Shown here one piece after another: positions 15,905 through 47,999 of a stretch of DNA of 64,000 nt. The notes below the pieces were generated by a model. That model worked only from the letters and a program-made list of their open reading frames with translations, was not told where the DNA came from and ran no database searches. Source of the DNA: Morinoia aosen (Eukaryota; Arthropoda; Malacostraca; Amphipoda; Talitridae). How positions within the stretch are numbered: position 1 is the first letter of the stretch; each line of letters begins with the position of its first letter. The stretch lies in assembly GCA_030386875.1 (NCBI GenBank), contig CM059571.1, positions 21,384,355 to 21,448,354 of the forward strand, read 5' to 3'. Both the position numbers and the translations under genes were made by a program.

Positions 15905-15975
15905 AAGAAGTCATCTTTGTTTAAAAAATAAAGCTTTCGAGTACTACTACACTCATCATCAGGATCTGAAACGGA
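15905..15975 (-). ncRNA. Hammerhead-like motif of a second Penelope-like element
   Basis: On the minus strand the order is CTGATGA (complement of 15956-15962), one T, GAGT (15954-15951), an 8-nt loop, ACTC (15942-15939), then GAAAG. This is the catalytic-core order of a hammerhead ribozyme, with a 4-bp stem II. It lies just downstream of the PLE endonuclease fragment at 16035-16280, where PLEs are known to carry hammerheads. The single T between CTGATGA and stem II departs from the textbook core. Stems I and III are not convincing by eye, so activity is uncertain. Confidence 0.6.
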
Positions 15976-16034
15976 AAAGAAAAATAAATTTTACATCAGG
16001 AATTATAAGAGCAACACATGTTAGTGAACAAAAC

Positions 16035-16280
16035 TTAATTACAAACTTGAAGAGGAACAGATGAATCAGTTGCGTTTAATGTTGGTTTGATCTGATGAAT
16101 AAGGATGCTTTCTAATAATCTTATATCTTGTCTACTACTGTGCCCTATAATTTCAAAGTTATTCTGATTGATTGAGTGACTAGATAAATGTGCGTGATCT
16201 CTGATACTACAATGTAATGTTTGGTTGGTAGCTCTACCAGTACGTACTGACATGCCCTTATGCTCTGCAAAATAAATCAG
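16035..16280 (-). pseudogene. Penelope-like element GIY-YIG endonuclease C-terminal fragment (PLE-2)
   Basis: The minus-strand frame reads YFAEHKGMSVRTGRATNQ, then HCSIRDHAHLSSHSINQNNF, then EIIGHSS, DIRLLESILIHQIKPTLN, and stops at 16035. The order (xHCSIRDHA, HSI, FEIIG, LLESxxIxxxKPxLN) is that of the C-terminal half of the GIY-YIG endonuclease of Penelope-like retroelements, which nicks target DNA for reverse transcription. The reverse transcriptase and the GIY-YIG motif itself are absent, so the copy is 5' truncated near 16280. The protein differs from the PLE at 45-48 kb, so it belongs to another family. No internal stop is seen in the remaining 73 codons. Confidence 0.8.
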
Positions 16281-16510
16281 AAAGCTATAGGGGTGTAGGA
16301 AACAAATAGTGGACTATCCAATTACTGCAACAATAGCCTATTTCGAGTGGGTAGAGAGGACACCGTTTCATGAATCAGGGTTTTTCATTTTCAGCAAGAA
16401 CAAGAAACAATTCAGAGACTATTAGCAACTATCTCTAAAGCTATTTACGATCCGGTAAAACTCTCACTTCGCATCACTATAACTACATATAAATAACTAG
16501 AGCTGTGCCA

Positions 16511-16690
16511 TTGCATAACTTGCATATATGCACGCCGAGAGATATGCAGAGTGTTTTATGCAATGCATATGCATTGCAATCTTGTGCATATGCAAAATCA
16601 CATGTGCAATTTTGCATATGCAATATAACAGATGTAATATGCAAAATGCATATAGCATATGCGCGATATCATTGCATATATGCTGTAATA
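16511..16690. promoter_or_regulatory. Left subterminal repeat cluster of the hAT element (GCATATG motifs)
   Basis: Within about 180 bases just inside the left terminal repeat, GCATAT, ATATGC, TGCATATG and related words occur more than ten times in both orientations (for example TGCATATGCAATATAACA near 16615). hAT transposases are known to bind short subterminal motifs repeated at each end. The mirror cluster at the right end supports that role here, but binding is inference. Confidence 0.65.
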
Positions 16691-17814
16691 CGAATGTTGT
16701 AATTTGTTTTTTTTAATGTAAAACTGCAAATTGGCTATTAAAACCAGAAACTTTGTACATTAATCTCTCGCATACACACTTATCAGTTGTTAAAGCAACA
16801 TCTCAAGTTTTACCCGGTGCGCCATGTTCAGTACCTGCTGCCCAGGTTTCCTACTTGACCTGTTCTTCAGTTAAATTTGGTTCATAAATAAAATAAATAG
16901 AGGTGTCCGAACTAAATTTATTGGAGTTTGAAGTTTTTAAGAATTGCATGGTGTAATAGTTTTTGTACACCTAGTTATAGTTTTCTTGTTTTGTTCTACA
17001 CATAGGCCTACCTATACGTACAATGTGATAAAGTGGAAATGCAACTGTGAAGTTTGTATCAATTCCCGAAACATATGCGTTTAGTGAATTAATTATAAAT
17101 ACCTTTGTTGTGCTCTGCTTGCTCATAAAAAATGAGAAAGAACTCAATAAGGTAATCCCTCGAATTCCGAATATGCCACAAATTCCCAAAATTTGCATCA
17201 TTACAGTGATTTCGCTTTCTGGACTTACATAAGGACAATCAAATCTGCAATTGAAATTTCGAGATTATATGCTGATTTGAATATTCCTACAATATTTGGT
17301 TATTCAAAACCTAATGCAAATATTCGGTATTTGTGGGATGTCCGGAATGAGAGAGATTACCTAGAGGAAGATTATGAGAAATTTTTCGCAAAATTTTGTA
17401 TTAATTTTTGTATTTAAATTTACAGATGTATTGGATAATATGATGATGATTGAAGAAATGAACAAATTTTTTTAGTATTCTAATGATTACCAATCTTTAT
17501 TAGTTACACCATTCCAAAGTACCCCAAAGTGTAATGAATAATACTTAAGAAAATGAATTCGCAGAATATGACTTTCGGGACGGAAATCTGTATTTTACTT
17601 ATTGCCAGAAAACGGTAGGTTTGTCGTGCAATCTAATAAGCGTATACACTGCTATTATCAAAATATCTGCTGCAACTTCATAGACATGAATAACGAAGAT
17701 AATCCTTCTGGTTCAGCATAAAATTAACCGATATTGACCCATTTTGTTCTTCGATAAAATCACCGAAAGCTAGAAGTTCAACCCCCATGTCTCATTTAAT
17801 GTACGAAACTAACT

Positions 17815-18082
17815 TTTAGTGCTCGCCGTGGCAGAGTGGTTGAGAACGTACCCATACGTGAAGGTGTTAAGGGTTCAAACCCCGGCGCTTCGCGGTGATT
17901 TTCCCCGTTGGGTAAAAGGAAAACTCAAACACAATACCCCACTCTACCCAGATATCGGAAATGGATACCGGCTCGACAGGGGAGTAACCGTCCTGGTGCT
18001 ATAGTAATACGGCATTTGAAAAACCAATGTACAAGATGATATTTATCTTGCTGAATTGATTGGAATAAAATTTTTTTTCTAG
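17815..18082 (+). mobile_element. tRNA-derived SINE, copy 1 (nested in the hAT element)
   Basis: The head has an A-box-like GTGGCAGAGTGGTTGAGA and a B-box-like GGGTTCAAACCCC (near 17870) at tRNA-like spacing, followed by a non-tRNA body shared with copies at 5555-5760 (minus) and 42187-42435. It ends in AATAAAATTTTTTTT. Pol III would transcribe it from the internal promoter. A tRNA gene is ruled out because the acceptor stem does not close after the B box. The position inside the hAT element shows that the SINE inserted after it. Confidence 0.85.
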
Positions 18083-18237
18083 ATTGCTAGCACGAGATCT
18101 TCCCATGATTAAGGATGTCAACTCAATTTTGCCTGGCTATCCTGTTGAGGAACGAAGACCAACCAACCAAATTTGTTGACCAACGAAGTAGTTGGTTACC
18201 TCTTTCCATCTGACATGGAGAATTTTAAATTTGCTCG

Positions 18238-18357
18238 CTGATGTACGGTGTAGAAAGAGTGTTTTCGCAATACAAAATTATTCATGCCGATAAGCGAAAA
18301 AAAGTGTCCTATTTGACATTAAAGTACATTATTATTCAATGTAACCACAATGGTTGA
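18238..18357 (+). pseudogene. hAT transposase C-terminal dimerisation domain fragment
   Basis: The frame reads LMYGVERVFSQYKIIHADKR, then KKVSYLTLKYIIIQCN, and stops at 18355. VERVFS followed by about 10 residues, R(R/K), then L..L.xI is the family signature near the C-terminus of hAT transposases, used for dimerisation. The upstream catalytic domain, with its three acidic residues, is not recognisable in this copy, and a TAA lies 10 bases upstream in the same frame. It is a relic. Confidence 0.8.
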
Positions 18358-18526
18358 ACCTTGTTCTACTTTGAAATCTTATGTAATCCTATTTTTATGT
18401 TTTCTTCATTAGTAGCAAATGCTCGATATTCTAAATATTCAACACTATTGTATTGAATCATTACCTTAGAGTTCAATATTTACAACATCAAACAAGTTCC
18501 AACTAACTGGAGTCGGTCATTCAGCA

Positions 18527-18675
18527 GTGCATGTGCAAGACTTGATTGCATATTGTTTGCATATAAATGCAAGTACTGTGCATACGACACTCCGCAACCG
18601 CATATATGTAATCTCAAGCCGCATTTTTTATGCGCGCATAATTTCATATGCGCTTGCATTTATGCACGTGCATAT
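18527..18675. promoter_or_regulatory. Right subterminal repeat cluster of the hAT element
   Basis: This is the mirror of the left cluster: GCATGTGCA, GCATATT, GCATATAAATGCA, GCATATATG, ATGCGCGCAT, CATATGCGC and GCACGTGCATAT occur within 150 bases of the right terminal repeat. The two clusters resemble each other in motif but not in long alignment. Confidence 0.65.
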
Positions 18676-18688
18676 TGGCACAGCTCTA

Positions 18689-19224
18689 AGAATAACTATC
18701 ATGAGAAATCAAATGAAGTGTGCATCCCGCGGAGATCAAATTAAGCATTGAATGACAATAATTCTGGAAACCAACTTAGTACCTAGATAATAAAAAGTCT
18801 GTGCAACGCGAAGTGTAATACTTCCCCAATGAAGAATTCGCACCAACGCGCTTGGAGTGGTCGATTAGTGGCGCATTTCCCCAGATGAGAACTTAGCGTA
18901 TTTCAAGAGACGCTCAACACCGTCTGGCTCCGAGTTCGAGGCGCTCGGCACGCGTTGACTGGGTGCAAAGTGTACCACCAAGCCGGCATTACGGATAATT
19001 CTTGTACGATAAAAAAAAAGGGCACCAGACGGCGTATGATGAGTATAAAGTTTCCGTCCCTGTCTCTCACTGTAGTTCAAGAACTTTATGTTCAGTCACC
19101 TCAACGTACTCGTGGGCCACTGGAGTTCACTGGAATATCAGTGGGGTAAACTCTGTTCCCCACCTCATACAGGTCTCTCGTCTGTCCACACACGCAGGAT
19201 AAGCACAGTTATAGTCACTAATTC
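18689..19224. other. Unassigned sequence
   Basis: Moderately GC-rich around 18840-18990. I see no supported gene or repeat. Confidence 0.35.
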
Positions 19225-19450
19225 GTGGAGTGGGCTGGATGCTGAACGAGCTCTGGCAAAATTTTTGGTCAGTTTTGAAATGGGTACATGAATGGGTGAA
19301 CAGCACAAACTTGTCTAAGTTTTGCAGCAACGAATAAATTGATTCACTTTCCGTCGATGAGAATGACATTGATCATCTTCAAAAAATATCAAACAATAAA
19401 GTTTCCCACTAATATATATGGTATAAATGAATAATGATAGCACGAAACAT
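19225..19450 (+). repeat. Dispersed repeat, copy B (inverted partner of 14275-14520)
   Basis: It matches the reverse complement of copy A over about 230 bases with many substitutions and small gaps. It includes GAGCTCTGGCAAAATTTTTG, GTTTTGAAATGGGTAC, GAATGGGTGAACAGCA and GTTGCAGC-like spacing. Its reading frame carries stops where copy A stays open, so copy B is the more decayed. Confidence 0.75.
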
Positions 19451-22400
19451 GAATCTCACAGGATTGATGCAAAACCTTATTTTCACTAACCTAGCGTATA
19501 CGGTATACGGGAGCAGAAAGTACTCACTGTATCAATACTGCCATTATTGATACAGTCATTTACATGATATACGCACAGACGACAAAACCATCCTGCGCTC
19601 TCTTAAGACGACTACCTCATGGAAACAAAGAATAATTTCGTTCAAGATGCACTACAAGGGTGTCAAACTTCTCAGTCTTGACATTTCCAGGTACGCTAGC
19701 AAAATAAAACTTACGAGTAACATCTCCATTTGACAAAGAAGTGAAATAAGTATTAGGAATGAAGGACGAAGACATTTTAGCAGACGTCGGCTGCACAGCC
19801 GACGTCTGTAACTGATTCGCTAGTTTCCCCTAGAAGAGAGTTAGAAAAGTTAAAATTAAAAGATGAAGTCATTCAAACTTCAAATTTGACGAACGAACAC
19901 CTTCAGTAATCTTAGTAATTCGTGGTGGTTAGCCAGGCGCACCGCTTGGGACAGGAGGAAAACTCGAGGATGTGCCTACGGTGCTGACGATCGTGGTGGC
20001 TCTGTAAACGCATTCTGCATCTCTTCAGACGAACGGTTGACGGTTCTTTTCCCACACTCTAAACCGACAGCAATGGCAATATCATTAGGCGCCTCGGGTC
20101 ATTTTGTAAGCAACTTAATTCACTGGTAAAATGCACCCAAGACTTATAAGATAAGTATAATACCTGTTGATTAATTACATAACTCTGCACTTTACACGCC
20201 CAACAACATCATAATCTCTTTTCATATCCCAACACCAGCCGCTAAAAATCTCGAGCAATTGTCAAATGTTTGAATGTGGCCCTACAAGAAGAACGTACCA
20301 CAAAGAAGGGAGCCACTATTATTTAATTATAGTTCGCTACCGGGATTTATGCAAGTTGGAGAACAATCGAAAATATACTGCATGTGAGAAGTTTCGAAGG
20401 CTATGGTTGTCAGAAACCTCGAAGACTAATGACGGGAAGTTTGGAAGATAATTGTTTGCAAAAACGATTTATAGAAGAAGATAAAATCAGTTCGTGTGAA
20501 TACTTCTACATAAATGTAATAATTCTTTCATTATTTTCTATTCATACTTTCACCGAATGGCAAGAAAAAATGGGCTATTTTTACTTTTTAGAACTTCACA
20601 AGCCCTTGAGGCACGGACCTCAAGTGTAAAAGGCTAAATAGAACCCACATTGCTCCTTTTTTCCTCATTTGAATGAGATGATATCGAGAACACAGTCGTC
20701 GATAAGAGGGGGTCTCCACAATGCACGAGAAGTCTGTTGTGTGCTGATCACAACCTTTGACTCATTGAACTTTTGACTGGTGCGTGCGATATATTGAAGA
20801 CACTTTTGAAAGGGTCAGTTTTTGGCCTTTCGCTTGACGTTGTCTACCGAGTGCAAAATTTTTATTCGGGCTTAAGCACAAGCACGAAAAAATAACGAAA
20901 CTTTCTTCAAAATAAATCATTTTTGTAATTCGCATCAAAAGGGTAGCTGGGACACAGCGACTAAAGCTGCGTTATGCTGTTCGCTCAAAGCGCAATATTG
21001 CGTTCACTCGCGCAGCTTTTATTGGCTCATGCTCCTCGTAAAGAACTTTGAGACACATCGCTCGACGACAGCAGCCAAGAACCGGGGGAATAAATCAATT
21101 CAGAGAGATAAATTCTGGAAAAATTTCATCAGACAAAAGCTTTCATTAGTACTCGAGAACCGCAAAAAATCTGCATCGCCGTCTTCAGCATCTCACTAGC
21201 GATATTTTTGGTTGCGAAAGGAATCTTCTTTGCGAAATTTCTGCAGCTAAATTTTGGGAATCATGCCCTACTCGTGAGGCACGGGAAAGTGAAACCCTTT
21301 CGCTAGACGTAGAAGAAAAAAAATTGTTTACGGAGAGTATTTCAAGAGAAATTTTTGGGCCCAATTTTTGGGAAGCTAAGGTAACTGTTGAAGTCTGGAT
21401 TCATTCCTGAAAGTTTGCTGTTTTAAAAGTTATTTCTTTGAATTTAGGTAGCGGAAATGAGGCACTTCGGTTCTAATGAGAGTAGGGAACGCGAAGTTAA
21501 TTTCCAATGCCTTTTAGAAGACTAAAAGAGACTAAAAGAATTAATTAGAACAAAAACTTAGCATATTCAAACACATGCGAACACTCACAGAAAAATGAAT
21601 AAATAAGACACTAACATAAATAGGTATGTGATTAACTGAGAGGGATTAAATATTTATTTTAAAATTGAAAACGCTCTCACTTTGTACTTTGGAGTAAATG
21701 CGGAGTAGGAAAAGCATGACGAAGGCATTAAATTTCAAAAAGAATTAAGGGAGACATTTTTAGCGAATCAATTTATATCCCAGTGAAGAAGTACGGGCTT
21801 TCATCAACGCAGGTGAGAGTGAGTCGATGAAAACATCATTAGAACAGTGATGAGTAGGCGCATAAATAAGCTTACGAGCTTAAATATCAGTACGCAAGAT
21901 GTTTTTTGAGCTTCAAACACAGATATATTCCTTAATTAATCTATTTTCTAAAAGAAATTCTCGCTATAAAGACGCCAGCAGGTGCTGCCTGATAACTTTA
22001 TCGCACGACGCTGGCGATTTGAGGTTCATTAGCTCAGCAAAGGAATGAAAGACTAAATTTAGAACTGAACTTCTTTCCAAGACTCTACACAGATGACAAT
22101 TTGTTTCTTGTTTTCCAAGTTCAGTTAGAGGTATTATTCCAGTCGTTGAATGAAGCTGAGCAGAGTGTGTTATTTGGAAACATACAGCACTTTCAAAGCT
22201 TATAAACTTCAGTATCAACGTTTTAAAATATTCTTAAATGCTCTCGGGGGAAAAATTTTCGAAGTGCCTGCTAAGTTTATCTAAGTTAGACTGAAAGCGC
22301 TGTAGTGAGTGCAATTTAATTATTTAAATATTTACATCAGCCATCGTTAAGCAGTGGCTGCACTGATTCCAAAAACTCGACTTCGGCTTTCAATCCAATG

Positions 22401-22600
22401 AAATTCTGGTTAACATGAGGGCAAGTTGTTCAACAAAATCTACCCACCGTTAAGGTAAAATCAGATCCCCAGAAAAAGAAAAAACAGGACTGATGTCTAT
22501 TTTATTTGTCGCTAAACTTAGTATCTCGCCCGTTTACGCAACCATCTAATAATTTTCAAAACATGACTTTTAGTGGCTTGGCTGCTTGTATCTGATTTAT
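19451..22600. other. Unassigned sequence with a perfect 28-bp palindrome at 19781-19808
   Basis: There is no gene I can support. At 19781-19808 there is an exact inverted repeat: CAGACGTCGGCTG, the two-base centre CA, then CAGCCGACGTCTG. The rest is ordinary AT-rich sequence with chance open frames up to 84 codons. Confidence 0.45.
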
Positions 22601-25600
22601 TGTAGTTCTGATGCAGCGTACCAGACAAGTGTGGGTCGGTATCGTGCTCAATCGACAGCGTAACCAACAGCCTAGCGACCAGCTGACCAGCAACTCACCT
22701 CCACAGGGTGACTGCACGAGCCAGCTGAGGATGCACGTGCGCAGGCTGCGACCCCCTCAACGCGTAGGGTGGGGTTTGCTCTCGTGGGTGCGATGTTCGA
22801 GGATAGATCCTACCAGGATCTAAGGAGTATATAGGACGAGCACTCAACAAGCAAGATTTACGGAAGGGATGCTAGCAGGACGAATGAAATCACAGTAGAG
22901 TGAATCAACGCAGCATCCTTAGAGCGTGGATATTGCAAAGTAGTAAAATTATATTTTGAATAGGAACGCTCTCTGACAGTGTTGTACTGCTGACAGCACA
23001 GGAGGCAGCATCAAGAAACGAACTGTCAGAAGATGGAGGCAGAAGCGCCGGCAAGCTCCGGTGCCGTGTGATCGTCTTCTGCTGCTTACGTGCGAAAGAG
23101 CCTGAAGAGGGAAAGTTTAATGCTGTATATAGGAGTAATGTGAAAATTTCGGTCTAAAATGCGACTAGTAAGATCGGCGTCATATATTATTGATGTCATG
23201 AGTTTCAAAACCCTTTTTATTCGACCCTTTTTGTTTATTTCATCACTCAAAATCTAAATTCAGCTCAAAGGCTCAAAACCTAGTCAAAGATCGAAAGCTT
23301 TGAAAATGAAATAAAAATACTGTAAAACAAAAGGAATACGTAGATTGCAACAGCTCAGTTTATCAAATACTGCAGATAGGAGCGATAATATAACAGTTGA
23401 GAGTAGCGGAGCAAATTTATGCATAAGACTGGAAAGGTAACGCGTGGTAAACGAAGATCAGATATTGCTAAATGCAAAAATAAAAAGTTCTGCCAAAAGA
23501 GCAGGCTCATGTTTGACGAAGACGAAGGGGCTACAAGAATGTAGGATGAGGCCCTCAACTAATTTGACAGGCGGGTGACAGATGAGATCACGAACTCTGC
23601 GCTTCCAGGGAAGTGAAGCTAAAAAGAAATCTGATATAAGGAGAGCCGAAGTGAAAGACCAATAACAACAAATCAGAAACAAAATAACGAATGCAACTCC
23701 CCAAAAATTTTACCATCACCTTTGACGGCGAGGATTTGACAACCTAAAGAAGGAAAATCTACGGAACGCGGCGTTCCAGCCATTTGCCTTAGAAGCCCTG
23801 TTAAGACTCTGCCTGAAATACTTAATAAAACTGGTGCACTCGAGACTAATGAAAGCCTTTGAAAATACAAAAATAGGTAGAGCTCCAGAAATTTCTTCAA
23901 AAGGAAATTGTCTTAGCTGCAATTTGCTCTGTTGAAGGAACCAGAGACTTGGAAGCCAATATTTGGTCGTCGGGAGGAATTATTTTTCTCATAGAATTTT
24001 ACGTCTCAGGACAAGCTAAATTATTTACATCCGGAATATTTCCTTTGATATATTTCTCTGGCCGAAATAACTTATTCTACGCACATTTTTGTTCTGGAAT
24101 ATCTGAACTGGAGCTTATCGAATATTTAGAGCATATTCCAAAAATGGAGCGCTCATTTATTATACGAAGGCGGTTCTAATAGTTGAATATTTCGTAGCTA
24201 GGAGAAGTTCATAGCCGATGCATTTTTTTTAATTCAGACACTTTTATGATTGTTATGGGATACCCAATTATTAATTTAGCATTTGCTAAAAACCTCTTCG
24301 CTACATTTTTGCATTGCACAAACTATTTCAATAGTTAAATTTTTGTGTATAAGCAGCGCCAATTTCGTTAGACTAACTTCAACGCTAACTTCAGATGGGA
24401 AAAATTATGAGAAGCATGAGAGAAAGAGCTGTGGGCTGCACAAACAGGAATGGAGGACAATTTGAAGGAAAGGAAAAGGGTAAAGAAAACAGTAAAGATT
24501 TAGTAACACTGTTTTCAGTTCAAATGCATTTCTCTTTTAAATGACTAATCCAGTTTTAAAGGCCTCCTTGTTTTACCTTTTGTATAGTATTGATAATTTC
24601 ATTTCCTTTATGACTCGCGTCATTTGCATAATTATTGAGTCATATAATTGGAGTTATCTGTTTGAAAATGAATCCATATTATCAAAAAATTCACTATTGA
24701 AGCAGTCTTTAAAGAACAAAATGTGTTAAATAGTTTTCGAATAGTATTAATTTGAAAATGCTCGTTACTTACAAATCGCACAGAAGTAATTGAAGTAAAC
24801 AAAGTGTTCGTAATGAGTGTATCCTAGCTTCTAGTAAAATTTTCAACAATTCAACTATTTTCTCCATGACAAATGAGCAAACCTTTTTTGGGGCGGAGTG
24901 ACTATAATAAATACCGATAATAGATGAAAGAAAACATACATCTCATTTGATGGGAATAAAGAATATAAAGAATTAATTCTCAGCACCTGGATTCCTTCAG
25001 TCCCCCATTAAGATGTGTAACATGTAGTCGTAATCTCCATGAGGGATTGTTTACGAATTTATGTTATTTAGGCACCAATTTTCCATAAAAAGAATAAATA
25101 ATTTCTATTGAGAAATAAAACTTTCTTTTTGCTCTCTCTCATTCTACGTTTGCTTGATACACCTTTCTTTTCTCCGTCATTTTCAAAAGTCTAACAGCGA
25201 TAACTTTTGGATATCGAGGCATTGTGTGGACTCTCTCAGCATTACAACACGCATAAAAATCCTATCATAACCAAGGACGAGATATCCAAACAATTCAACT
25301 TGTCAAAGTGGAACAGCTAGCAGAGTTGAGTCAACTAGGCTACGTCGCACGCCGTAGCAAGCAGTCACGCCTCACGCCACGCTTTAGTTAACTTGCTGCC
25401 AATTCAGCCAAATCAAAGAAAAACTTTGCTCCATTTACACTGCATGGACTGAATATCTCACGAGGCCTTCCAAGGCGCGGCGGAAAATTTCTAGGAGAGA
25501 CTGTCGCACTAAATGCCTGCGCTTCTCACTATGTCTGGTCTGTGCTGACTCGGCAACGGGAGTTGAGTTAACCCGTCTGGGAGATTGCCAGCCGCGATAG

Positions 25601-36900: not shown

Positions 36901-37152
36901 GAATAGATTTAAATTATTGGGAGTGCTGCAGAGAGGATATATTAGCATATATATTAAATATTTATTTATTATAATATACATGTACAAAATTATAATATAC
37001 ATTTTTATTTATCCTCTCTGCAACACACGCAATAATTTAAATCTATTCGAATGGTATCATAAATACCATTCGAATGTTGTAAAAAACCTAGCATCCATTA
37101 ACGTTTATTTACAAGCAAACAAAATTGCTGCAATAAAAATTGAATTTATTGT
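36797..37152. repeat. 143-bp inverted repeat around an AT-rich 70-bp centre
   Basis: Arm 36797-36939 pairs with arm 37010-37152; shared words include AGAGAGGATA with TATCCTCTCT, and CATTCGAATAGATTTAAATT with its complement. The arms differ at a moderate number of sites. The centre is itself partly repeated (TTATAATATACAT twice, near 36969 and 36989). The arms are the right-hand portion of repeat family R. Confidence 0.85.
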
Positions 37153-37365
37153 TCAAGAAAATACGATTTGTAGAAATTCATAAATACCATTCGAATGACG
37201 TAAAAAACCTGGCATCCGTTCATGTTTATTTACAAGCAAAAAATATTGCCGCAGTAAAAATTGAATTTATTGTTCAAGAAAATACAATTTTTAGACATTT
37301 CTGTAGTCGTGAAGGGCCTGCTCTCGTATTCCTGAGTCATGAAGGGCCTGCTCTCGTATTTCTTG
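37058..37365. repeat. 121-bp tandem duplication followed by a 30-bp tandem duplication
   Basis: CATAAATACCATTCGAATG begins at 37058 and again at 37179, so the right arm of the inverted repeat is duplicated with a 121-base period up to about 37297. At 37306 and 37336 a separate 30-base unit, GTCRTGAAGGGCCTGCTCTC plus GTATT(C/T)CTGA, occurs twice. Confidence 0.85.
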
Positions 37366-38321
37366 ACGGACCATCTTTCTAATTTTACATCCTGTGCTCT
37401 GCTATCGTAAAGTCTTGCATTGCATTTCCATGAGTGATTTAAAATCAGTGTTGCTTCAGTGCTCGATTTCGTAACTTAGTCAAACTTTTTCGCCGGAGCG
37501 TGCATTTTTTTTTGCCGCCATAGCGATTTGACAACTGGGGCGGCGGAAAACATGCATGCAGGCGGCGAAAAAGCTAAACTGGGAATTGACCAGCGCTCTG
37601 CGCTCGAGCCTGAGTGGTTGTTGGTGGCCAGTATTTCGATAATTAAATGTATTCGTTAGGAGTTGTAAAATTTTCTAATTTAGTGTGAGGAATCTCTTAC
37701 TCGAATAAATACTCTTTCTTGTGAATGAAGTGCTTCATGTTCTAGTAAGGTCTGTTGTTTTAAATCCTTGCTCCGTCCCCTTTAGACAAATTAACGTTAA
37801 ACACGTTACACAAGCGCAATGAAAGCTATCAGAATTATGACAACCGAAAAATCCAAATAGTTACCTACTGCGGGTGCACCGCTCGAAGACTGCTATTGGG
37901 AGGACTTGCTCAGCTGATATCTTGGTGCTGCAAGCAGAGACCGTAGCATTTCTCGTTATATAACTTGTCTTTCCACCCCGCCTTAAGGGATTCGTTCCTA
38001 AATGTTTTTTTAAATAGAGTTCATATCATAGGTAAATTAAGGATTGCGGTTCAAGAATTATTTTATAGTCTTCGCTCATGGCTGTGATGGGAATAGAAAC
38101 TCGATAGCAAGAAATGCGAGAGCTCTTGCCGGTAACATCAAGAAATCAGCTGTGGATGTCCGATTGTCCGTCCATTACCATTAGCAGAATATACTTTGTT
38201 ACTGAAGCGCTAGAAACCTGGTTTTACTACTGCTACTTAGCGAAATACCTCGCAGAACTCTACCGTTCAAGAACTGGATTTTAGTCGTCTTTCGTTGTTC
38301 AGAGAAGTTGAGCTATTGCCT
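37366..38321. other. Unassigned sequence
   Basis: No supported gene. The GC-richer part at 37490-37620 includes two similar GGCGGCGGAAA/GGCGGCGAAAA strings. Confidence 0.35.
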
Positions 38322-38575
38322 CAGAGAAGTGTTGTCTCATAGAAGAATTACCACACAGAAGCATTGCATTGCTTCACAGATATATTACCTAATAGTAGTA
38401 TTGCCTCACAGAAGTATTACCTCATAGAAGTATTGCCTCATAGAAGAATTACCTCATAGGAGTATTGCCTCAGAGAAGTATGGCCTCGGAGAAGTATTGC
38501 CTCACAGAAGATTGCTTTATAGAAGTATTGCCTCACAGAGTTATTGCCTCACAGAAGTACACATTGCCGCACAAT
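38322..38575. repeat. 16-bp degenerate tandem repeat, about 15 copies
   Basis: The unit is about CCTCACAGAAGTATTG. Copies vary at positions 5-7 (CACAG, CATAG, CAGAG, CGGAG) and at the last base (TTG or TTA), and a few carry small indels. It is more diverged than the other arrays in the window. Confidence 0.88.
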
Positions 38576-39601
38576 TCGGGATGTGGACTACCAAGATTAA
38601 ATATAACATTAGTGTTGGGTTTTCTCATTAAATAAACATAATAATATAAATGGTCGAAACATCGGCCTTTCTTCAGCAGATAATTAATAGTTATTTTAGA
38701 AGATGATCATCAATTTATGAAAATCGGTTTCCTGTCTGCACATACTTAACATTAAATAATGAATGACCGATTATACACAAAAAAACAGTAATTACAAAAA
38801 GTAATTTATGTTAATTTATTTTTATAAAAAACGTAAAGGTCGTAAAGAAGTTTGAGCATCTCCTACAGTAACAGGTGAGTAAATTAAACTTCCAGAAATG
38901 ATATCGTAAGTCTTCACTTCATAACTCACCTTATCATACACGAACTCTAAAATTAAACTTCCAGATAAGATAACCAAGCGTATGACCGTCAGATAACATT
39001 TCAGGTGAAAAAATAAAATTCACTTTCACGAACTTCATTCAAACTATAAGTTGGTGAGTTCATTTTACAAAACTCCGCTATATGGCTCCAATAACTTTTT
39101 TGTTAAAGCAAAGAGGACAAAAGCTGAGATTTTCCACAAGCAACTCCATGAAAAGTTTGAAATATGTTCATGCTGCCTCTTATTACACAACACTACTACA
39201 AGGAGGAATGCATCAGCAAAGAAGCAGAGGAGCTCAAAAAAGAACCAAAATTAATTCATTAAATGCAGACAATAAAAATTGACCGATCACTACATGATGA
39301 AACAAATTCTCTTAAGCGCATCAGTATCATTTACGTATCCAATATATCCCTGGGTTCCGAGATGAAAGAGGAAAGAATATGCTTTTATTACAGATTTCGA
39401 TAATCATTTGAAGAAGGATAAACACATGCTCTCGTGGTATCAAGCTTATAAGAAACTAACACTAACATCAAATAAAATCTCTATTATAAGCAATCCCAGT
39501 AATGCTCTTGTAAGCAAACATCCACTTTGCATGTCTACAAAAAAGTGCTATAAAACCATTCATGTAAAAAATTTATCACTTTGCTTGAATCGCAATGCTA
39601 A
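38576..39601. other. Unassigned sequence with a duplicated segment
   Basis: AAATTAAACTTCCAGA occurs twice (near 38883 and 38951) within a loosely repeated block at 38870-39000 that mentions GTGAGT and CTCACC words. On the plus strand, frames at 39051-39254 and 39408-39782 (67 and 124 codons) are lysine-rich, open and unrecognised. Given the PLE-like inverted repeat that follows, they may be PLE-derived. Confidence 0.35.
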
Positions 39602-39940
39602 TAGAAATTTAAAAGCGAAGAAAACGCTAATAAAACTAGTCATATTTACTCAAATTGAGAAAAAACAAAATCGAAAACGTTTCGGAGTCCAGCTCCATCT
39701 TCAGTTCTGTAAAATACAAAGAATTCAAAAAAGTGCAAAAAGTACAAACATTACGAAAAACACAAGCAATACAAAAAAGTAAAACGAACACAATTTTGTA
39801 CTTATACACTTTTTTGAATTCTTTGTATTTTACAGAACTGAAGATGGAGCTGGACTCCGAAACATTTTCGATTTTGTTTTTTCTCAATTTGAGTAAATAT
39901 GACTAGTTTTATTAGCGTTTTCTTCGCTTTTAAATTTCTA
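39602..39940. repeat. 134-bp near-perfect inverted repeat, 71-bp loop, with hammerhead-like core in each arm
   Basis: Arms 39602-39735 and 39807-39940 are reverse complements at 133 of 134 positions; the one difference is GAAACGTTTT against GAAACATTTT, a CpG-to-TpG type change. The same 27-residue open frame therefore occurs on both strands. Each arm contains CTGAAGA, T, GGAG, a 5-nt loop, CTCC, GAAAC (39838-39863 on the plus strand, 39679-39704 on the minus strand). This is the order seen in the PLE hammerhead-like motifs at 44.7 and 47.9 kb. The tail after GAAAC also resembles those PLE ends (GATTTTG, TTTT, CAATTTGAGTAAATATGACT, TTTATTAGCG). I infer a head-to-head pair of PLE termini or a palindromic element. 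Confidence 0.9.
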
Positions 39941-42186
39941 CATTCATGTAAAGTGCTGCTCGATAGTCACATACTTTAAGCTACATTTTGTCTTGAAAAA
40001 CCATTCTGCAAAACATACAAGGACTATTTAGCACCATTTTTTACGTAAATAAAACCTTTCTGACAAGAATTATGAAGGCGTCCGCTATCAATGCCTGCAA
40101 ATCCCCTGTCAGTCCTTCCTAAATTTGAATGGTTTTGGCAGAGACCTAACCTCGTTAACAGAAGTTATTTTTACACGATTGTTGCCAAAATACTTTGACC
40201 TGTTATCAGCAAGAACTCTGCACTGCATGGACGCATACAAGCTGGAGCCAGTAGTGTGTCTCTTGATTATAATCAGGAAGATATTGAAAGCATTCAAGGT
40301 ATTGTGGCGTTGAAAAACAGCCTCAAAATTATTGCCTAGAGTTAGTTGCGCCTGAATCTTCGTCGAATGTTTTGTAAGTTTTAAAATTTATAAAATAATA
40401 GTTTGAGAGCGTAAGAACGGAGTAGCCGCTCACTCATCAGTACACTCGTCTCACACAACGGTGGCAGGAAGTATGCACGTTAAGATGCATGGCATATGTT
40501 AGCACAAATTGTTTCTTAGTATTGGATTTGAATTGGTGATGAAAAGTGTTCGGAAATTAGTGATGTTCGTAAAAAAAATTCTCACGTTTACGCAGGAGAA
40601 ATTTTATTCACATGCAGCAGGATAAAAACTCCACATTTAATGAAACAATAACTGATCACGGATCAGAAGAAGTGCCCTGACTGTAGTGCCCTGACTGTAC
40701 GAACACACCTCGAGAATAACGAGTGTTAGTTTTCTAGGAATCAACTTGCGTGATTCCTGAGTAATAAAAGCGTAACTAGCCTTTCTACTTAACGCGATGT
40801 TTCTTGTTTTGCCACCTTGGAAGAAGATCTTGCCGGTATTACACTGTCAGTTTTTTACATTTTTTACACGATGCACAGTCAGCTTACGCTATCATGTCTT
40901 CAATGATCTTCAGAGGAGATATTTGAAGTTAGCAATGCGTCTCGCAGCTTGAGCACTGCACAGGGCAGTGCCCCGTAACATAGGCCTCGAACAAATCCTG
41001 TCTCCTGAGGACACTAGAGCTTCGTTCGAGCCGCTAATTGGCGCCGGGCGCACAGTTGGGCGTGTCTAACAGCCCCTGGTGCCCTGCAGCCATGCAGTTG
41101 ACAAAACATTTGAAAATGCGAGTCTTTGACTTACAAGATTGTATTCTCCGGGCCTTTACTGGGTGTCCCTTGAGATGAGCCCATAAAGTTTCAAGGTTAG
41201 TCCTTGTTTTATAATGGTTGATGTAATGCAATATATGCAATGATCTGGGAAGTGTGATATATTGATTGACGAATAAATTAACCTTCATTATCTTCGTTTA
41301 GAATGCTAAGGATTTCTGCCCGAGACTACCCGTTTTAGCCCTCGCCTAATGCAATCAGCCATTTCTTTACCGTGAACCTGGCAGCCCTGCGATCTGACCT
41401 TCCTCTGAATTGCGTCGCCTGGTGGTCTGGGAAATCTAGCTATTCTGAAAGGTGTCTACAATTCATTCTATTGCTTCAAATAAATCTAACTGATAGCTGT
41501 GATATTTATTCAAATAGTTTTTGTTTTTGAAATTGTAACTTTAGAGCATTTTAGTTAGTATACACATAAACTTTGGCTCATCATGGCTTTTTCTTTTTCA
41601 TCATAATCATGTTAGTGTACGGCCGTCCACGAAGTCGGGCTCTAACCTGTATTCCAAGCTTTTTTAATGGTTGTTGAAGAGGCTGCTGAGGTGGCTGATC
41701 ACATTAATGAATACCTCTTCCTCTAAAGCGCTTCATTAAACTTAAATCTAGTCACAAACATTCTGCGTAGCCTATATATACAAAAAAATTGTTTTACATG
41801 AGTACTAAATACAAAAGATTTTCAACGACTGTAATTGGCAGTAAATATCTACTTTATTATTCGTAATATACCTGGTTGAGATTATGTAAGCATTTAAATT
41901 TTAAAACCTGTATCAAAAGTGAATATTATCATATTAAAGTAAAAATTAAAAGACGGTTGATGTAATGATAACCATACAAATATGGTACCTACAGCACCCT
42001 AAAATTACATAATTTATGAAAATATTTTAATGCCATTGTGAAAGTTATCGTAGTTTTGCATTTTATTTCTTGGAAGAACAATATGATCAAAAATATCATT
42101 GGTTCCATGTTTTAACACAGAAGTTATATTTCCAGGCAGCTTCACATATTCCATTTCATAGCATTCCAAATTTTTTGAACGTTGCA
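39941..42186. other. Unassigned sequence
   Basis: No supported gene or repeat. A short direct repeat AGTGCCCTGACTGTA occurs at about 40671 and 40684. Confidence 0.35.
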
Positions 42187-42435
42187 GTCACCGTGGCCTA
42201 GTGGTTGATACGATGCGTACTCAACGAAAACTCGCCGGTTCTATTCCTGGCAATGGCGAACCTTCACGCCGGGAAACGGGAGAACTTAGCCATAATTCCC
42301 CACTCCACCCAGATGTCGGAAATAGGCTCCAGCTCAGTCGGGGCGGCCGTCATTGCGTCTTGGTGTTAGTTATAAGGCATTTGAAAAACAGATATGCAAA
42401 ATAATTTGAACCACACTTGATTAGAATGAAACATC
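42187..42435 (+). mobile_element. tRNA-derived SINE, copy 2
   Basis: The head GTCACCGTGGCCTAGTGGTT has a clear A box (GTGGCCTAGTGG), followed by a B-box-like CCGGTTCTATTCCTGG (near 42237). The body matches the other two copies: CCCCACTCCACCCAGATGTC, GGAAATAGGCTCCAGCTC, AAGGCATTTGAAAAACA and CACTTGATTAGAATGAAA. It has diverged from copy 1 by many substitutions, so the family is old or long active. Confidence 0.85.
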
Positions 42436-43994
42436 TTGTATCACATATTCATGAGGGATGTGTTCCAAACGAATAAAAACATTGAAATGTTGAACAAATC
42501 TAATTAACCAGTTCCTGAAAAAAGCTAAAATATCACAGTAGTAAACAATGAAGCGAAACAAAACATCATGTATTAAAGGACTGTTCGAATAAAAACCACA
42601 AGCAGTGCTGGTCTCCCTTATGTGAAAGCTGAACGTCTCTATCAATTCCACAATGGCCCATCTGAACAACAGATTTAGATTTTTGCATGAACATACTTAA
42701 AATAAAGAACTTTCCTTTGCCTGCTTACTGACGGACGGATGAAGAGGGACATACTTCAGGTGTTGTTTAATGCTGTCTTCATAAATAGATAACCATTTGG
42801 GTAGAGAGTTGTCACAAACAAATACTGAAGCTTAAGTTTCTTTGATGTATCGACGTGATCTGAACAACTAAAATCTCGTCCAGCGTTAGAAAGTCTTACA
42901 GCAGATATTCATTTTTAGAGAAATGCCGAAGTGCTCCATTTGATGTTTTCCCTGTTAAGTTGAATACAATTTCACTTCTGTTCTCGTAACCAATTACTTT
43001 GATCTCGAAACTGTGTGTTTCAATAAATTCTTCCCTTTAATAAAGTTAGCAGTCAGTAATTGTGAACTTACTATTCCTAGTTTATCTAGTGCATTTAATA
43101 TAAATATTTTTCTGAACCCTTCATTTTGAAAGCACCTCAAATCTCTGCTCACAATCGAGCTGCATGAGACCTCGATGACTCGGATCGGCCTTCTCTGCTG
43201 ATAACATTGAGCCCAAAATAAAGAAATTTGTCTCCCTTTCAGTGTTAAAGACCAGCAATGAATCATATCTATCAAGTATATTTCTAATCATAAATGATTG
43301 GTTCTATAATGGCGATAAATTAAAAATTTGATTTCAATCTTTAGTTGATTTTTCAGCCCAAGTTTCAAGTGAAGAGGACGATCTAATTCCCGTTGGCATT
43401 TTGCTGATCGAAGTTTCTTTGATCGCGAGCTCGCACTGATCAAAAGGGGGGCATACACAATAGGGTCATCGGTAGCCGTAGGGAGGCTTCAAAGGCATGC
43501 GGTCTGAAATTTGGACCGATTGATGGTACTTCGCAGTGAAACCAATGGTAGAATAACTGGAAATACATGTATGTGTTCCTGTAGCTGAAACTACGCATTG
43601 GAAGGAAAGAGCTGAGAATAAAATTTGAAAAGTCTTTTTCATTTGAGGAGCATTTCTTACAAAATATGGAAACTGTGACATTTTGATGGGCTATGCTAAG
43701 AAAGTAATAAAAATGTTGAGCTTAGTACTAGTGGTGTAATTTGACCGTTAGAAACGAATGGAAACTAATCCTTTACATGTCGATGGGAGCTGAATCCGAT
43801 ACTTCTTTTACCATTGTATATGCAGGCAACGCTTTAATAGTTCAAACAAATATACGGATATCTGATTGCATAATTACCTTAATTAGACTTATCACTATTC
43901 AGTACTTTCATTTATTTCCTGAGAAATTGTATGCCTACTGATTCCTTGCTTTATGTATTGTCTGGAGTATGGAAACGATCATAACGCTCAACAT
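42436..43994. other. Unassigned sequence
   Basis: No supported gene. The minus-strand frame at 42994-43275 (93 codons) and the others match no family I know. Confidence 0.35.
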
Positions 43995-44245
43995 AATATA
44001 GAAGATATCAATAAAAATGAACGAGCATGATAAGCTACTTTAATCGTTTGATCATTTAAGGTATATATTCGAATAAAACCTAATTTCAAAAGTTTCGGTG
44101 ACAGGCTACCAGCAGTGATAAGAATTCTGAGAAGCAAAAAGTAAAAATAGACCATTTTAGAATGGCAAATGTAAAAAAATCTATAAAATTGCGTTAATTG
44201 CGATTATCTATTTACAACGGCTGAAGGAAATGAACTAAGAGTGTT
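43995..44245 (-). mobile_element. PLE-1 inverted partner copy: 3' terminal region with degenerate hammerhead-like motif
   Basis: Read on the minus strand, this matches the 3' end of the main PLE (47758-47995): TTCCTTCAGCC, AATCGCAATTAACGC, CATTCTAAAATGGTCTATTT, then the hammerhead position, then AAATTAGGTTTTATTCGAAT and ACCTTAAATGATCAAACGAT, AAAGTAGCTTATC and TTCATTTTTATT. The core is decayed here (CTGCTGG instead of CTGATGA), but GGT and ACC still flank the loop before GAAAC (44109-44090 region), and stem I words ATTC and GAAT are kept. Confidence 0.85.
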
Positions 44246-44565
44246 GTTTAAACCCGGCTTAAGTTTAAAAATGTACAATGTAAAACTGTGGTTTTGCCAT
44301 GACCGGAATTTGAGTAATGGGAATTACATTATCGCACTCGTCAGAATGCTTTCGAACGGCGGAAAATGGGGGCTTTGACAAAATTGAGCCTGTTCTAAAG
44401 CTCCTACCAGAATGCTCGCAAACTCGAGTGCGAAGAGTACGGGATGTGTCACCAATGTACTCTGATGCACAACATGCTCAACTAAACTTATAAACAAGAG
44501 TAGCTTGCATTCCGGCAAGGAGCTTATCTTTATAATTAAAAAATGATGATATTCTAAAGTTGTTG
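44246..44565 (-). pseudogene. PLE-1 inverted partner copy: GIY-YIG endonuclease fragment
   Basis: The minus-strand frame runs GMQATLVYKFS, a stop, then SEYIGDTSRTLRTRVCEHSG, then FRTGSILSKPPFSAVRKHSD. It corresponds to the endonuclease of the main copy at 47397-47757 and keeps the VYK, EYIG and TR(V)xEH motifs of the GIY-YIG fold. One TGA lies just before the YIG motif, and about 30 bases near the end (the RILESLYIFKLK region of the main copy) are deleted. The copy begins abruptly near 44565, where the plus-strand pseudo-LTR of the main element starts, so the two copies are head to head. Confidence 0.85.
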
Positions 44566-44680
44566 GAATTATTACATTTCCTTAAGCCATAGTAAATAGA
44601 TAATCGCAAATAACGTAATTTTATTGCTTGTTTTTAGAGTCGTCATTCTAAAATAATCTATTGTTACTTTGTACTTTTCA

Positions 44681-44744
44681 GCATTCTCATCACTGATGAT
44701 GGCCTGTTGCCGAAACGTTTGAAATTAGGTTTTATACGAATACA
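44681..44744 (+). ncRNA. Hammerhead-like ribozyme motif, PLE-1 5' pseudo-LTR copy (best preserved)
   Basis: CTGATGA at 44693-44699, one T, stem II GGC / loop CTGTT / GCC (44701-44711), then GAAAC (44712-44716), then a possible 2-bp stem III closing with GT at 44729. Upstream GCATTCTCATCA and downstream TATACGAATAC can pair around an internal loop (ATTC with GAAT), giving a plausible stem I. Hammerheads are known in PLE terminal repeats, where they may process tandem transcripts. The extra T before stem II is unusual, so cleavage activity is not assured. Confidence 0.72.
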
Positions 44745-44747
44745 TAC

Positions 44748-45274
44748 TGTTGCCGCAGTTCTTAATTTTGACCCCAGTTAAGAAGTAGGATACCCGTGTC
44801 TGTGATGAACACGGATTATTTGATCGTGTACTTTTGCCGGTGTGACTCGTAATAATTGTGCCTACATTTTGTGATTATTCTATATAGATTCATTTACTGT
44901 TATATTTGATTTGAACCGTGACTGAATATTCTGTAATGATTTATTGTTAGATTTTACGAGTGTAGGAACAAAGTTAATGCTTAGTTTACTTATGTCTTTC
45001 CTTTATTTGCAGAACGAGACTCATATTATTTTCAACCCGTAGCCGTTCATTATTACTGCCGTTGCCATTCAGCCGTGGCCATTATCTCGTTGTGCTACCA
45101 TTGGCTCCCAATTACTGTTCCATGTGATGTTGACCAGCAGAAACAAAAAATGTAAACTTAAAGACTATAATTTCAAACCTGAATGTGCTCCTGTTGACTA
45201 TTTATGTTCAGTAGAATGGTGGTAAATGAATAACTAAGGCCGGTGATGCCAAGTGAAGGTGTGTGGCGCCTTCA
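44748..45274. mobile_element. Solo LTR, 527 bp, with 5-bp target duplication CATAC
   Basis: The insertion starts TGTTGCCGCAG and ends GGCGCCTTCA, that is TG...CA, and is flanked by CATAC on both sides (44743-44747 and 45275-45279). Removing it rejoins the PLE pseudo-LTR exactly. TG/CA ends plus a 5-bp duplication are the hallmark of an LTR retrotransposon of the Ty3 or BEL/Pao type reduced to one LTR by recombination. A TATA-like CTATATAGATTC lies at 44880. No coding sequence remains. The family is not certain. Confidence 0.88.
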
Positions 45275-45382
45275 CATACCTTAAATGATTAAATTATTAA
45301 AGTATCTGATCTTGCTTATTCATTTTTATTACGGTTGCTACGGCTCCCTGATGACTATTATGATTTCATTAAACTGCGCTAA

Positions 45383-47757
45383 GGCGAGATTGGCTACAAG
45401 TCGTTCAGGAGGTGTAAAAACCGGCATCGCAAGCTTGAAAAGACCAAGTTAGGTATAAATTTCCTTGTCAACTGCAAGGCCCAGAACATACTACCGAAGC
45501 ATCTCCGATTCAAGCTCTACGAGCGTTGCCTGCAATCATCCACCTTATATCGTTCATGGCAGAGTAAGTTACTTGTCAACGAACTGCAGTGTAAGAGAAA
45601 AAGTGAGGTCGTCTTCAGGACATCGCTTGCCACTAGCGACGCCACCTTTCTATTCCTTCTTTCACCTTTTCGCTGGATTCTGTACTGCAGATACATCGCC
45701 TTCCGCATCAAGCAGTTCAGAGATGAGACCTAGGCCGTCCACGGAAGAAAACTACAGGCCCTCGGCGTTCAAGGGGAGGTCGGTCCAGTGGACCCATCTC
45801 AGGTCATTTAATTTTATCTCTGTGGCTCTGTCTCCTCGATTAGGATACTAACTTACGTTTGGCCTAGAATTTTGTTTACCAATTTTTCAATTAGATTTTT
45901 ATAAATTCTTTTTATCTTATGAAAGAATAGCTTACAATCTTAAAATGTTCGCTGTAATAATTTTAGTGAACTCACAGACAGAGTACGCACTGTTGCTCTT
46001 AAGTATTACTATAATTTCAAGCCCTACAAGGTTTTTTCGTTTGTTTTCTCAAAATCTGATTTCACTCTCTTAAAAAAGTTAGCATCAAACAGGAACGTCA
46101 TTGTAGCCAAACCAGACAAAGGACGGGGTATACATCTCTTAGACAAGGCGACCTACCTGAACAGCATGAAATAGCTTATATAGGATCCGAATAAGTTTTC
46201 TTAAGTTATTGAGCCGGTAAAAAATTTAGTCACTCGTATAGAATATAAAATCAATCAATTTTTGCGAAAATTTAAAGGCTTGAACTGCATTAGAGAAGAT
46301 TTATACATGATGCTTTATGTCAAGGGCTCTGAACTGGGTGCTCTCTATGGCCTTCCGAAAAATTCATAACCTGAATTTACTACAAAGTACCAATTCCGTC
46401 GAATTTTTGCGTCCTACAATGCTCCTAGTTTTTTGTTGGCAAAATTTTTACTACCTGTTTCGTCACCTCTCTGTACCAACGATTTTACTGTTGAAAAATT
46501 TTACTTACGTCTCAGATTTGAAAAAAACATTTCGATGGAGACCGTTTTTTTATGGCATCTTTTGATGCAGAATCATTATTTAATAACATACCCCTGCATG
46601 AGACTATTGCTATTTGTCTACGAAAACTGTTCCTAAATTCTACAACAAAAATCACAGGCCTCTCAAGAGATCTTTTCAAAACTTTTTTGAATTATCAGTG
46701 CTCAATTCATTTTTTGTGTTTGATTCGAAATATTATAGACAGACGGAAGGGATGGCTATGGCCCAACTTTACCCAACATTTATATGAGTGAAAATGAAGT
46801 TCAGAGGCTGTAGACCTGCCCCGAGTCATTTAAGCCCGTATTTCATAGACGCTACATAGATGATACGTTCCTGCTCTTTCGTGAATCATCTCACGCCCAA
46901 TTGTTCTTGGATTATTTGAATAAAAAACATGAAAATATAAAATTTACATGAAAATAGAACAAGATCGAAAAATTTAACTTTCAGACTACCTAATTCATAA
47001 ATCAAATAAATTCGAGTGCACTGCTTATAGAAAAGAGTTTTCACGACTAGGACTAAGTTTTTTGCAGCTTTTGTCTGTGGTCTTTTAATATTAATAGTGT
47101 TACAACGTTGATATCCCGCGCGTTTAAAATTTGTTCTAATTTCCCATTTTTATATCAAGAATTTCACTTTTTGAAAAAAATTCAAAAAATGGTTACTCCG
47201 TACGTTGCATAGATTCAAAAATACGTTTATTCCTCGATAGATTTAATGGCTACAGACATAAAATTGGCAACATCGGCCCCGCCCATAGGACTGCATATGT
47301 ATCTCTTCTTTACTTTGGTGCGCAGTCTAAGAAATTAAATATAGAATTGGTCGGTGCGTTTTTGTAGTAATTTTCTGATGGGAATTTAAAACTGTATTGG
47401 TAAACAATTTTAGAGTATCACCGTTTTTTAATTATAGAGATAAGCTTGCTGCCGGAATGCAAGCTACTCTTGTTTATAAGTTTAGCTGTGCACGTTGGGA
47501 ATCAGAGTACATTGGATGTACATCTCGTACTCTTTACACTCGAGTTTTCGAGCACTCTGGTAGGAACTTTAGAACAAACTCAACTTTTTCAAAGCTCCCA
47601 ATTTTTGCCGTTAGACAGCATTCTGACGAGTGTGATAACGTAATTTCCATTAATCAATTTTTGATATTGGCAAAACCAAAGTTTTATACAGATATGCGTA
47701 TTTTAGAGTCCTTATACATTTTTAAACTTAAGCCGGGTTTGAACAACACTCTTAGTT
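45383..47757 (+). pseudogene. Penelope-like element reverse transcriptase / GIY-YIG endonuclease (PLE-1), decayed
   Basis: Frames on the plus strand give, in order: an N-terminal PLE region (LEKTKLGINFLVNCKAQN, then KHLRFKLYERCLQSS, 45430-45590); VIVAKPDKGRGIHLLDKATY (about 46100); YGLPKN and ASYNAPSFLLAKFLLPVSSP (46340-46470); reverse transcriptase motif FDAESLFNNIPLHETI (46561); YRQTEGMAMGPTLPNIYMS (46735-46790); catalytic YIDD (46853-46864); and a fully open 120-codon endonuclease stretch at 47397-47757 with VYKFSC, EYIGCTSRTLYTRV and ILESLYIFKLKPGLN. PLEs copy RNA into DNA at a nick made by this endonuclease. Several stops and frameshifts between 45710 and 47390 make it non-functional as one protein. 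The region between YIDD and the endonuclease is degraded. Confidence 0.9.
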
Positions 47758-47999
47758 GATTTCCTTTAGCCATCAGAAATAGGTAATCGCAATTAACGTG
47801 ATTTTATAGGTTGTTTTTAGATTCCTCATTCTAAAATAGCCTATTTTTACTTTTCAATTTTTTAAATTCTTATTACTAATGATGGCCTGTGGCCGAAACG
47901 TTTAAAATTAGGTTTTATTCGGCTATATACCTTCAATGATTGAATGATCATAGTAGCTTATCTTGCTCTTTCATTTTTATTACGGTGCTAGGGCTCCCG
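47758..47999 (+). mobile_element. PLE-1 3' pseudo-LTR
   Basis: It directly follows the endonuclease stop and carries the same sequence as the 5' repeat: TTTCCTTTAGCCATCAG, GGTAATCGCAATTAACG, TCATTCTAAAATAGCC, the hammerhead position, AAATTAGGTTTTATTCGG, ACCTTCAATGATTGAATGAT, TCATTTTTATTACGGTGCTA and GGGCTCCC. It ends where the 5' copy runs into the coding body. The two copies differ at many sites, so insertion was not recent. Confidence 0.88.
47866..47930 (+). ncRNA. Hammerhead-like motif, PLE-1 3' pseudo-LTR copy
   Basis: CTAATGA at 47876-47882 (a G to A change in the CTGATGA core), one T, stem II GGCC / TGT / GGCC (47884-47894), then GAAAC at 47895. Stem II is longer here than in the 5' copy but still fully paired. 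The core change should abolish cleavage in this copy if the motif is a true hammerhead. Confidence 0.65.

Follow-up and report, generated by a model that had tools for sequence, protein, structure and literature searches.

Here we analyse a hairpin motif in the genome of the amphipod Morinoia aosen, starting from a stretch of 64,000 nucleotides (nt) of contig CM059571.1 (positions 21,384,355 to 21,448,354 of the forward strand; assembly GCA_030386875.1), which we call the window. The motif occurs at five sites of the window, at 44693, 47876 and 39838 on the plus strand and at 39704 and 15962 on the minus strand. BLAST comparison with tandem units elsewhere in the genome (loci L069, L190 and L192) places these sites in pseudo-long terminal repeats (pLTRs) of three families of Penelope-like elements (PLEs), in line with the retroelement origin proposed in the initial annotation. 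Judged from its letters, the motif is very probably the minimal type I hammerhead ribozyme of PLEs.

Hammerhead motifs in the window and in the genome

The motif had been described as an invariant order of CTGA(T/A)GA (CTAATGA at 47876), a single T, a short hairpin and GAAA. Direct reading of the sequence confirmed this order at all five sites, and the hairpin arms GGC/GCC, GGCC/GGCC, GAGT/ACTC and GGAG/CTCC with their differing loops matched the letters. Site 44693 reads CTGATGA-T-GGC/CTGTT/GCC-GAAA, site 47876 CTAATGA-T-GGCC/TGT/GGCC-GAAA, site 15962 CTGATGA-T-GAGT.../ACTC-GAAA, and the two sites at 39838 and 39704 CTGAAGA-T-GGAG/CTGGA/CTCC-GAAA. The hammerhead core CUGAnGA/GAAA around stem II is therewith exact at four of the five sites, 47876 being the deviating one. 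Its G5 is replaced by A. G5 is an essential residue of the hammerhead, such that this copy is probably inactive.

By itself the loose order (CTGANGA-N5..26-GAAA) exceeds chance only weakly in the window, by about a factor of two: 12 matches were found where 5.5 were expected, and one out of 100 shuffles provided at least 12. Four of the 12 are real sites, and 47876 escapes the loose pattern because of its CTAATGA. The whole genome (1.99 Gb in 29 contigs) was searched with defined patterns that were compared with reversed-pattern controls. The pattern CTGANGATGG..CCGAAACG had 11,525 exact matches compared to a single one for its reversed control. For the core with the extra T, CTGANGAT..CGAAACGT, 17,405 places were obtained, with 35 for the control.

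Covariation of stems I and II

For a structural comparison, copies from the genome were grouped into clusters. Sites with fewer than three stem II pairs or with short flanks were discarded, and the remaining 58 rows (43 distinct) gave 27 clusters at less than 80% identity, measured over flanks plus hairpin. Due to this filter the stem II figures of the clusters are inflated, while stem I is unfiltered. The clusters are at times referred to as families; a single family may have contributed some of them as decayed members.

Besides stem II, a second helix that had been overlooked in the initial annotation was found. In this stem I the nucleotides directly 5' of C3 pair with those directly 3' of the base that follows GAAACGU. 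Within the 27 clusters its positions 1 to 3 were paired in 24, 21 and 22 cases, and the next positions in 7, 5 and 11. All three pairs were formed in 15 clusters, compared to a mean of 3.07 and a maximum of 10 in 5,000 shuffles of the 3' strands. Sliding the stem by one to three bases left 1, 1 and 2 fully paired clusters. Ten distinct fully paired triplets were observed when G-U pairs were counted, among them TCA/TGA, GAA/TTC, GCA/TGC, GTA/TAC, TAA/TTA, ATG/CAT and TTG/CAA.

Covariation was quantified on an alignment (A1) of 24 of the 27 clusters, from which two window sites and L069 were left out. Over both helices 91.1% of the cells were paired compared to 62.5% after shuffling; for stem I alone the fraction was 81.9%. 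Cells that had changed on both sides numbered 56, compared to 18.4 in the shuffled alignments. The covariation value was 0.809 versus 0.247 for shuffled alignments, with none of 500 shuffles as high, and slid versions reached at most 0.203. Counted by pairs, two-sided changes (6) did not exceed the shuffles (287 of 500). The compensatory changes that the initial annotation had reported for stem II, and whose absence from a larger alignment it had regarded as decisive against the motif, are borne out. As a sample without the pairing filter we considered 36 matches from 30 loci, in which a stem II run of at least three pairs was present in 26 and a full stem I in 15. Viral contigs searched with a near-identical pattern as a chance control gave 23 of 80 and 5 of 80, respectively, among the matches listed.

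A covariance model (R1), the construction of which had been suggested earlier, was built from A1, i.e. from copies elsewhere in the genome and with the families of 44693/47876 and 15962 excluded. Applied to the window it returned 17 matches: the five sites, with E-values from 1.6e-11 to 5e-4, and after a gap 12 others between E 0.36 and 10. These E-values are rough owing to a short calibration.

An extra U in the hammerhead core

In a hammerhead stem II follows directly after A9, whereas here one U intervenes, as had been stated before. Genome-wide the base after A9 was T in 17,405 places and any other base in 662 (reversed controls 35 and 105). Among 30 fetched non-T copies, 16 paired better with this base as an insert, none paired better as a textbook core and 14 favoured neither; three of the 16 (L010, L017 and L038) reached 3–4 pairs without the insert as well. 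Since none of the 30 fitted the textbook core better, the insert is general in this genome. Many of the non-T copies resemble point-mutated members of T families. As 30 of the 68 fetched 3-kb loci were picked for a non-T insert, insert counts among the clusters do not represent a sample of the genome.

The idea that this lineage uses a variant core holds in that the extra U is fixed here. It is not supported as a peculiarity of the lineage, since known alignments contain one or two inserted nucleotides next to CUGAnGA (PMC10085705). The same source gives the conserved string as CUGAnGA. CUGAAGA, which the textbook core had been thought to disallow, is therefore permitted, because position 7 can be any base.

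Predicted cut site and helix III

With stem I identified, the succession of GAAA, C-G-U and H17 fixes the predicted cut. For the copy at 44693, stem I and ACGU-H17 put it after T44719 (GAAACGUU^UGA) and not after the GUU near 44729–44731, where it had originally been expected. No stem I could be drawn by eye at the latter position. G was found at position 17 in only 116 of the 17,405 places (control 3), in agreement with the NUH rule.

The nucleotides at the place of helix III are ACGU or, as in the family of 15962, AGCU. Both are self-complementary and lack a loop. A helix III of this kind is unable to fold on itself, such that a working one would have to form between two copies. The pattern CGAAAGST was present at 2,498 places genome-wide (control 33). 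Hand counts among 100 listed places gave 47 with GCU, 39 of which belonged to three repeated hairpin types including that of 15962, and 53 with GGU, 47 of which were of one hairpin type. Helix III centres with A and T were rare (247, control 30), with no amplified type among 100 listed places. The abundant AGGU type, CTGAGGATGGAGCTRGTCTCCGAAAGGT, is found for example at C1:5377000-5377130 and often occurs as inverted pairs about 103 bp apart. This type may be a short, non-autonomous offshoot of Penelope in which the palindrome of helix III has been lost.

The host elements

Four loci (L069, L190, L191 and L192) contain tandem PLE units with periods of 2.6–2.7 kb, in which the motif lies just upstream of the open reading frame (ORF). 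Counted from the first ATG the ORF comprises 839 aa in L069, 834 aa in L191 and 833 aa in L192; in L190 the frame is broken. The three intact ORFs match the reverse transcriptase (RT) family RVT_1 (PF00078) with 36–38.6 bits at a cut-off of 29.6. Two of the three match GIY-YIG (PF01541) below the cut-off (E 0.0023 and 0.028), and neither L069 nor the ORF piece in the window gave a PF01541 match. In the putative endonuclease region the string VY..Y.G..T(S/T)R...R..EH is conserved. Fold models A3 and A2 were too poor to be used (predicted local distance difference test values, pLDDT, of 47 and 45), and a sequence search of the PDB provided only weak matches, which were likewise not used. No relatives of the PLE protein were confirmed in viral and prokaryote contigs.

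Across the four tandem units the main ATG follows A9 by 54, 55, 50 and 56 nt, and the predicted cut by 33, 32, 25 and 30 nt. Wobbles included, stem I has 3, 4, 5 and 3 pairs in L069, L191, L192 and L190. Tandem units, pLTRs, inverted pLTR pairs and a tail that ends inside the ORF are present, as in Penelope elements. In a rotifer PLE the pLTR takes in the first 12 aa of the ORF, or 22 aa with the tail (PMC3846280). Four of the five pLTR overlaps with the ORF in the window are within this range, and one (79 nt) is longer.

The features of the window are collected in Table 1. A sixth, decayed hammerhead copy was recognised only through BLAST, as an L069 match from 44278 to 44010 places it in a Penelope pLTR. 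For copy 1, about 540 bp without L069 match (44748–45288) lie between the pLTR and the ORF.

Table 1. Penelope-like element and hammerhead features of the window
Feature	Position	Strand	Remarks
Hammerhead copy 1	44683..44729	+	R1 E 1.3e-7; C3 44693, A9 44699, extra T 44700, stem II 44701-44711, GAAA 44712-44715, C-G-T 44716-44718, H17 T44719; predicted cut 44719/44720; stem I UCA/UGA
Hammerhead copy 2	47866..47912	+	R1 E 1.6e-6; CTAATGA; stem II GGCC/GGCC; predicted cut position 47902/47903; stem I UUA/UAA
Hammerhead copy 3	39828..39876	+	R1 E 1.4e-9; inverted pLTR pair; ACAU in place of ACGU; stem I GAA/UUC
Hammerhead copy 4	39666..39714	-	R1 E 1.6e-11; other arm of inverted pair; ACGU kept
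Hammerhead copy 5	15921..15972	-	R1 E 5e-4; relative L192; stem II GAGT/ACTC; AGCU in place of ACGU; first stem I pair damaged compared to L192
Decayed sixth hammerhead copy	44079..44125	-	R1 E 4.1, not significant alone; in inverted Penelope 3' end
5' pLTR with copy 1	44577..44747	+	BLAST to L069
PLE body (RT to GIY-YIG-type endonuclease)	45289..47794	+	86% identity to L069 over 2,535 aligned positions; reading frame broken; open piece 47379-47759
3' pLTR with copy 2	47704..48004	+	BLAST match to L069 ends 62 nt inside next ORF (tail)
Inverted Penelope 3' end (endonuclease remnant and pLTR), L069 family	44010..44564	-	ends 38 nt inside ORF
5'-truncated Penelope copy, L192 family	15859..16268	-	95-96%; ends 41 nt inside ORF
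pLTR fragment, L190 family	39565..39754	-	97%; ends 79 nt inside ORF
pLTR fragment, L190 family, inverted partner	39795..39940	+	95%; ends 42 nt inside ORF

The window also contains tandem arrays: a large one at 49564–54809 (35-bp unit, about 150 copies, 94% matches), one at 2959–4587 (27-bp unit, 60 copies, 98% matches), which is open in several frames because its unit is a multiple of three, and arrays of 46-bp and 56–119-bp units at 61019–63240 (83–96% matches). Elsewhere, at L068:1412-1561, a palindromic pair of hammerhead-bearing arms matched Rfam MIR529 (E 7e-5, below gathering score); the microRNA matches at this locus are due to the palindrome.

Proposed mechanism and alternative explanations

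The core, the covarying stems I and II, the adherence to the NUH rule, the location in PLEs, the near-universal extra U and the copy number are established by these data; from them catalysis, dimer action and a role in transposition may be inferred. The ribozyme would be laid out as the 5' strand of stem I (3 bp), C3UGANGA9, the extra U, the stem II hairpin (3–7 bp), G12AAA, CGU (or GCU) and H17, followed by the cut and the 3' strand of stem I. Helix III would pair two copies, either in trans or from adjacent units of one tandem transcript, and the PLE protein may assist in this. Tandem transcripts would most probably be cut between units in this way, into unit-length RNAs whose 5' ends lie some 30 nt ahead of the ORF. 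Cleavage would also part the main ORF from a short upstream ORF (uORF) that begins at A9-U-G10.1.

A trivial explanation would be an artefact of chance or shared descent, i.e. a common word next to hairpins that formed by luck. The roughly twofold excess of the loose order in the window would fit this. It is opposed by the reversed controls (1 and 35 versus 11,525 and 17,405), by the slid and shuffled controls, and by the much lower pairing in the viral contigs than in the unfiltered sample, such that we consider its probability practically negligible. A different role of the extra U is conceivable, though in our view unlikely: it may be kept because A9-U-G10.1 is a start codon, with translation, splicing and cleavage as alternative fates within about 15 nt. 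In uncleaved RNA a uORF of 7–14 codons would then be translated; cleaved RNA would lack it, and spliced RNA would carry a disarmed ribozyme. Penelope elements are known to have introns close to the start of the ORF. The dominance of U over other bases after A9 agrees with this idea, as does the start-codon context: A6 is at -3, and 17 of 24 clusters have G at +4. A9-U-G opens short frames alone, of 7, 10 and 14 codons in L069, L191 and L192. Of the 27 clusters, 12 have a splice-acceptor-like Y3(N)YAG within the 14 nt that precede C3, compared to 1–2 of 27 for each of seven more distant upstream blocks; in 11 clusters (read from the strings) the AG overlaps stem I. However, the AUG may be incidental, as G10.1 is demanded by the hammerhead fold as well. 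The frame and length of the uORF vary between families, L190 has AGG at this place yet sits in a tandem array, and for plain YAG the contrast is weaker (18 of 27 in the 14 nt upstream versus 11 of 27 downstream). Pyrimidine-rich tracts with YAG directly before the hammerhead are also seen in the window, e.g. at 39830–39837 and, on the minus strand, 15963–15970. The extra T as start of the main ORF was rejected: the main ATG of each of the four tandem units follows A9 only after 50–56 nt, and the A9 frame stops early (L069, where it is in frame) or differs.

Somewhat less probable still is that the hammerhead core doubles as an expression switch, which would combine the AUG in favourable context created by the extra U with the splice AG on stem I. 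A spliced transcript would have lost the ribozyme and be an mRNA that retains the uORF, whereas a cleaved one would lack the uORF and be a unit-length template; the choice between mRNA and transposition template would be made within a single short stretch. We consider the overlap of AUG and splice site a minor lead, which provides a testable idea tying cleavage to expression. Very unlikely, finally, is that the motif serves the PLE protein as a recognition site in DNA or RNA (for priming, packaging or targeting) and keeps the look of a hammerhead without present catalysis. The Anolis protein is thought to bind RNA within 172 nt of the ORF start, and Anolis hammerhead mutants still insert in vitro (PMC11167929). 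A stem I of just 3 bp and the abundant hairpin type without helix III palindrome would also suit a recognition site. The NUH rule and a covarying stem I are, however, needs of catalysis, and a binding site needs no H17.

Several observations weigh against the minimal hammerhead ribozyme that we favour. The Rfam hammerhead models RF00163 and RF00008 include helix III. The Rfam hammerhead families gave no match in the window at the gathering score and none in the scanned stretches even at E up to 10; RF00008 and RF00163 had no match in the own genome, and control genomes likewise gave none. RNAalifold applied to A1 draws stem II alone without the 3-bp stem I, a complete stem I is wanting in 12 of 27 clusters, and the clusters are related to differing degrees and not all independent (GCA/TGC recurs). 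The window copies are decayed, with ACAU at 39838 and A5 at 47876. The AGGU hairpin type is not self-complementary, and the broken palindrome argues against a strict dimer rule, at least for this type. In Anolis no RNA-seq reads started or ended at the presumed cut (PMC11167929). A large natural set of PLE hammerheads is available here in one genome, with 27 distinct clusters from a small sample of its 17,405 places, and covariation was sufficient to fix stem I, the predicted cut site and the core insert.

Comparison with known systems

Hammerheads without helix III in Penelope elements have already been published, and core insertions of one or two nucleotides are known. Minimal type I hammerheads of PLEs were reportedly described by Cervera and de la Peña in 2014 and by Luense, Weinberg and Breaker in 2017. 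An extra nucleotide in a viroid hammerhead core, which lies between A9 and helix II, was reportedly described by De la Peña and Flores in 2001. Unlike in our case, this extra base is said to be an A, in a viroid with full helices. The hammerhead concerned is that of the (+) strand of Chrysanthemum chlorotic mottle viroid (PMC3705267). Titles and abstract openings on Penelope hammerheads describe neither a fixed extra U nor a splice-site overlap, which is no proof of absence.

The pLTRs of PLEs are reviewed to carry minimal type I hammerheads without helix III that possibly act as dimers and whose role is unknown (PMC6155905, PMC7761336, PMC7229834). The elements of M. aosen have the pLTR location, the core, the lack of helix III and the proposed dimer action in common with them. 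They differ, as far as these reviews allow a comparison, by the U fixed between A9 and stem II and by AGCU in some families. The type I hammerheads of retrozymes and salamander satellites share the weak helix III (amphibian), better cleavage as dimers and very many copies, but reside in non-autonomous short tandem repeats and not in PLE pLTRs (PMC7229834).

The Poseidon element PAc of Anolis carolinensis (PMC11167929) likewise has stem I, stem II, loop II and the location at the junction of pLTR and ORF. Its hammerhead cleaves in vitro only when the PLE protein is added. Also in common are a start codon that opens stem II after C3 and G8, and an internal RT start that matches the tail. Unlike in PAc, the main ATG in M. 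aosen is located 25–33 nt past the predicted cut, and the AUG at stem II opens a short frame only.

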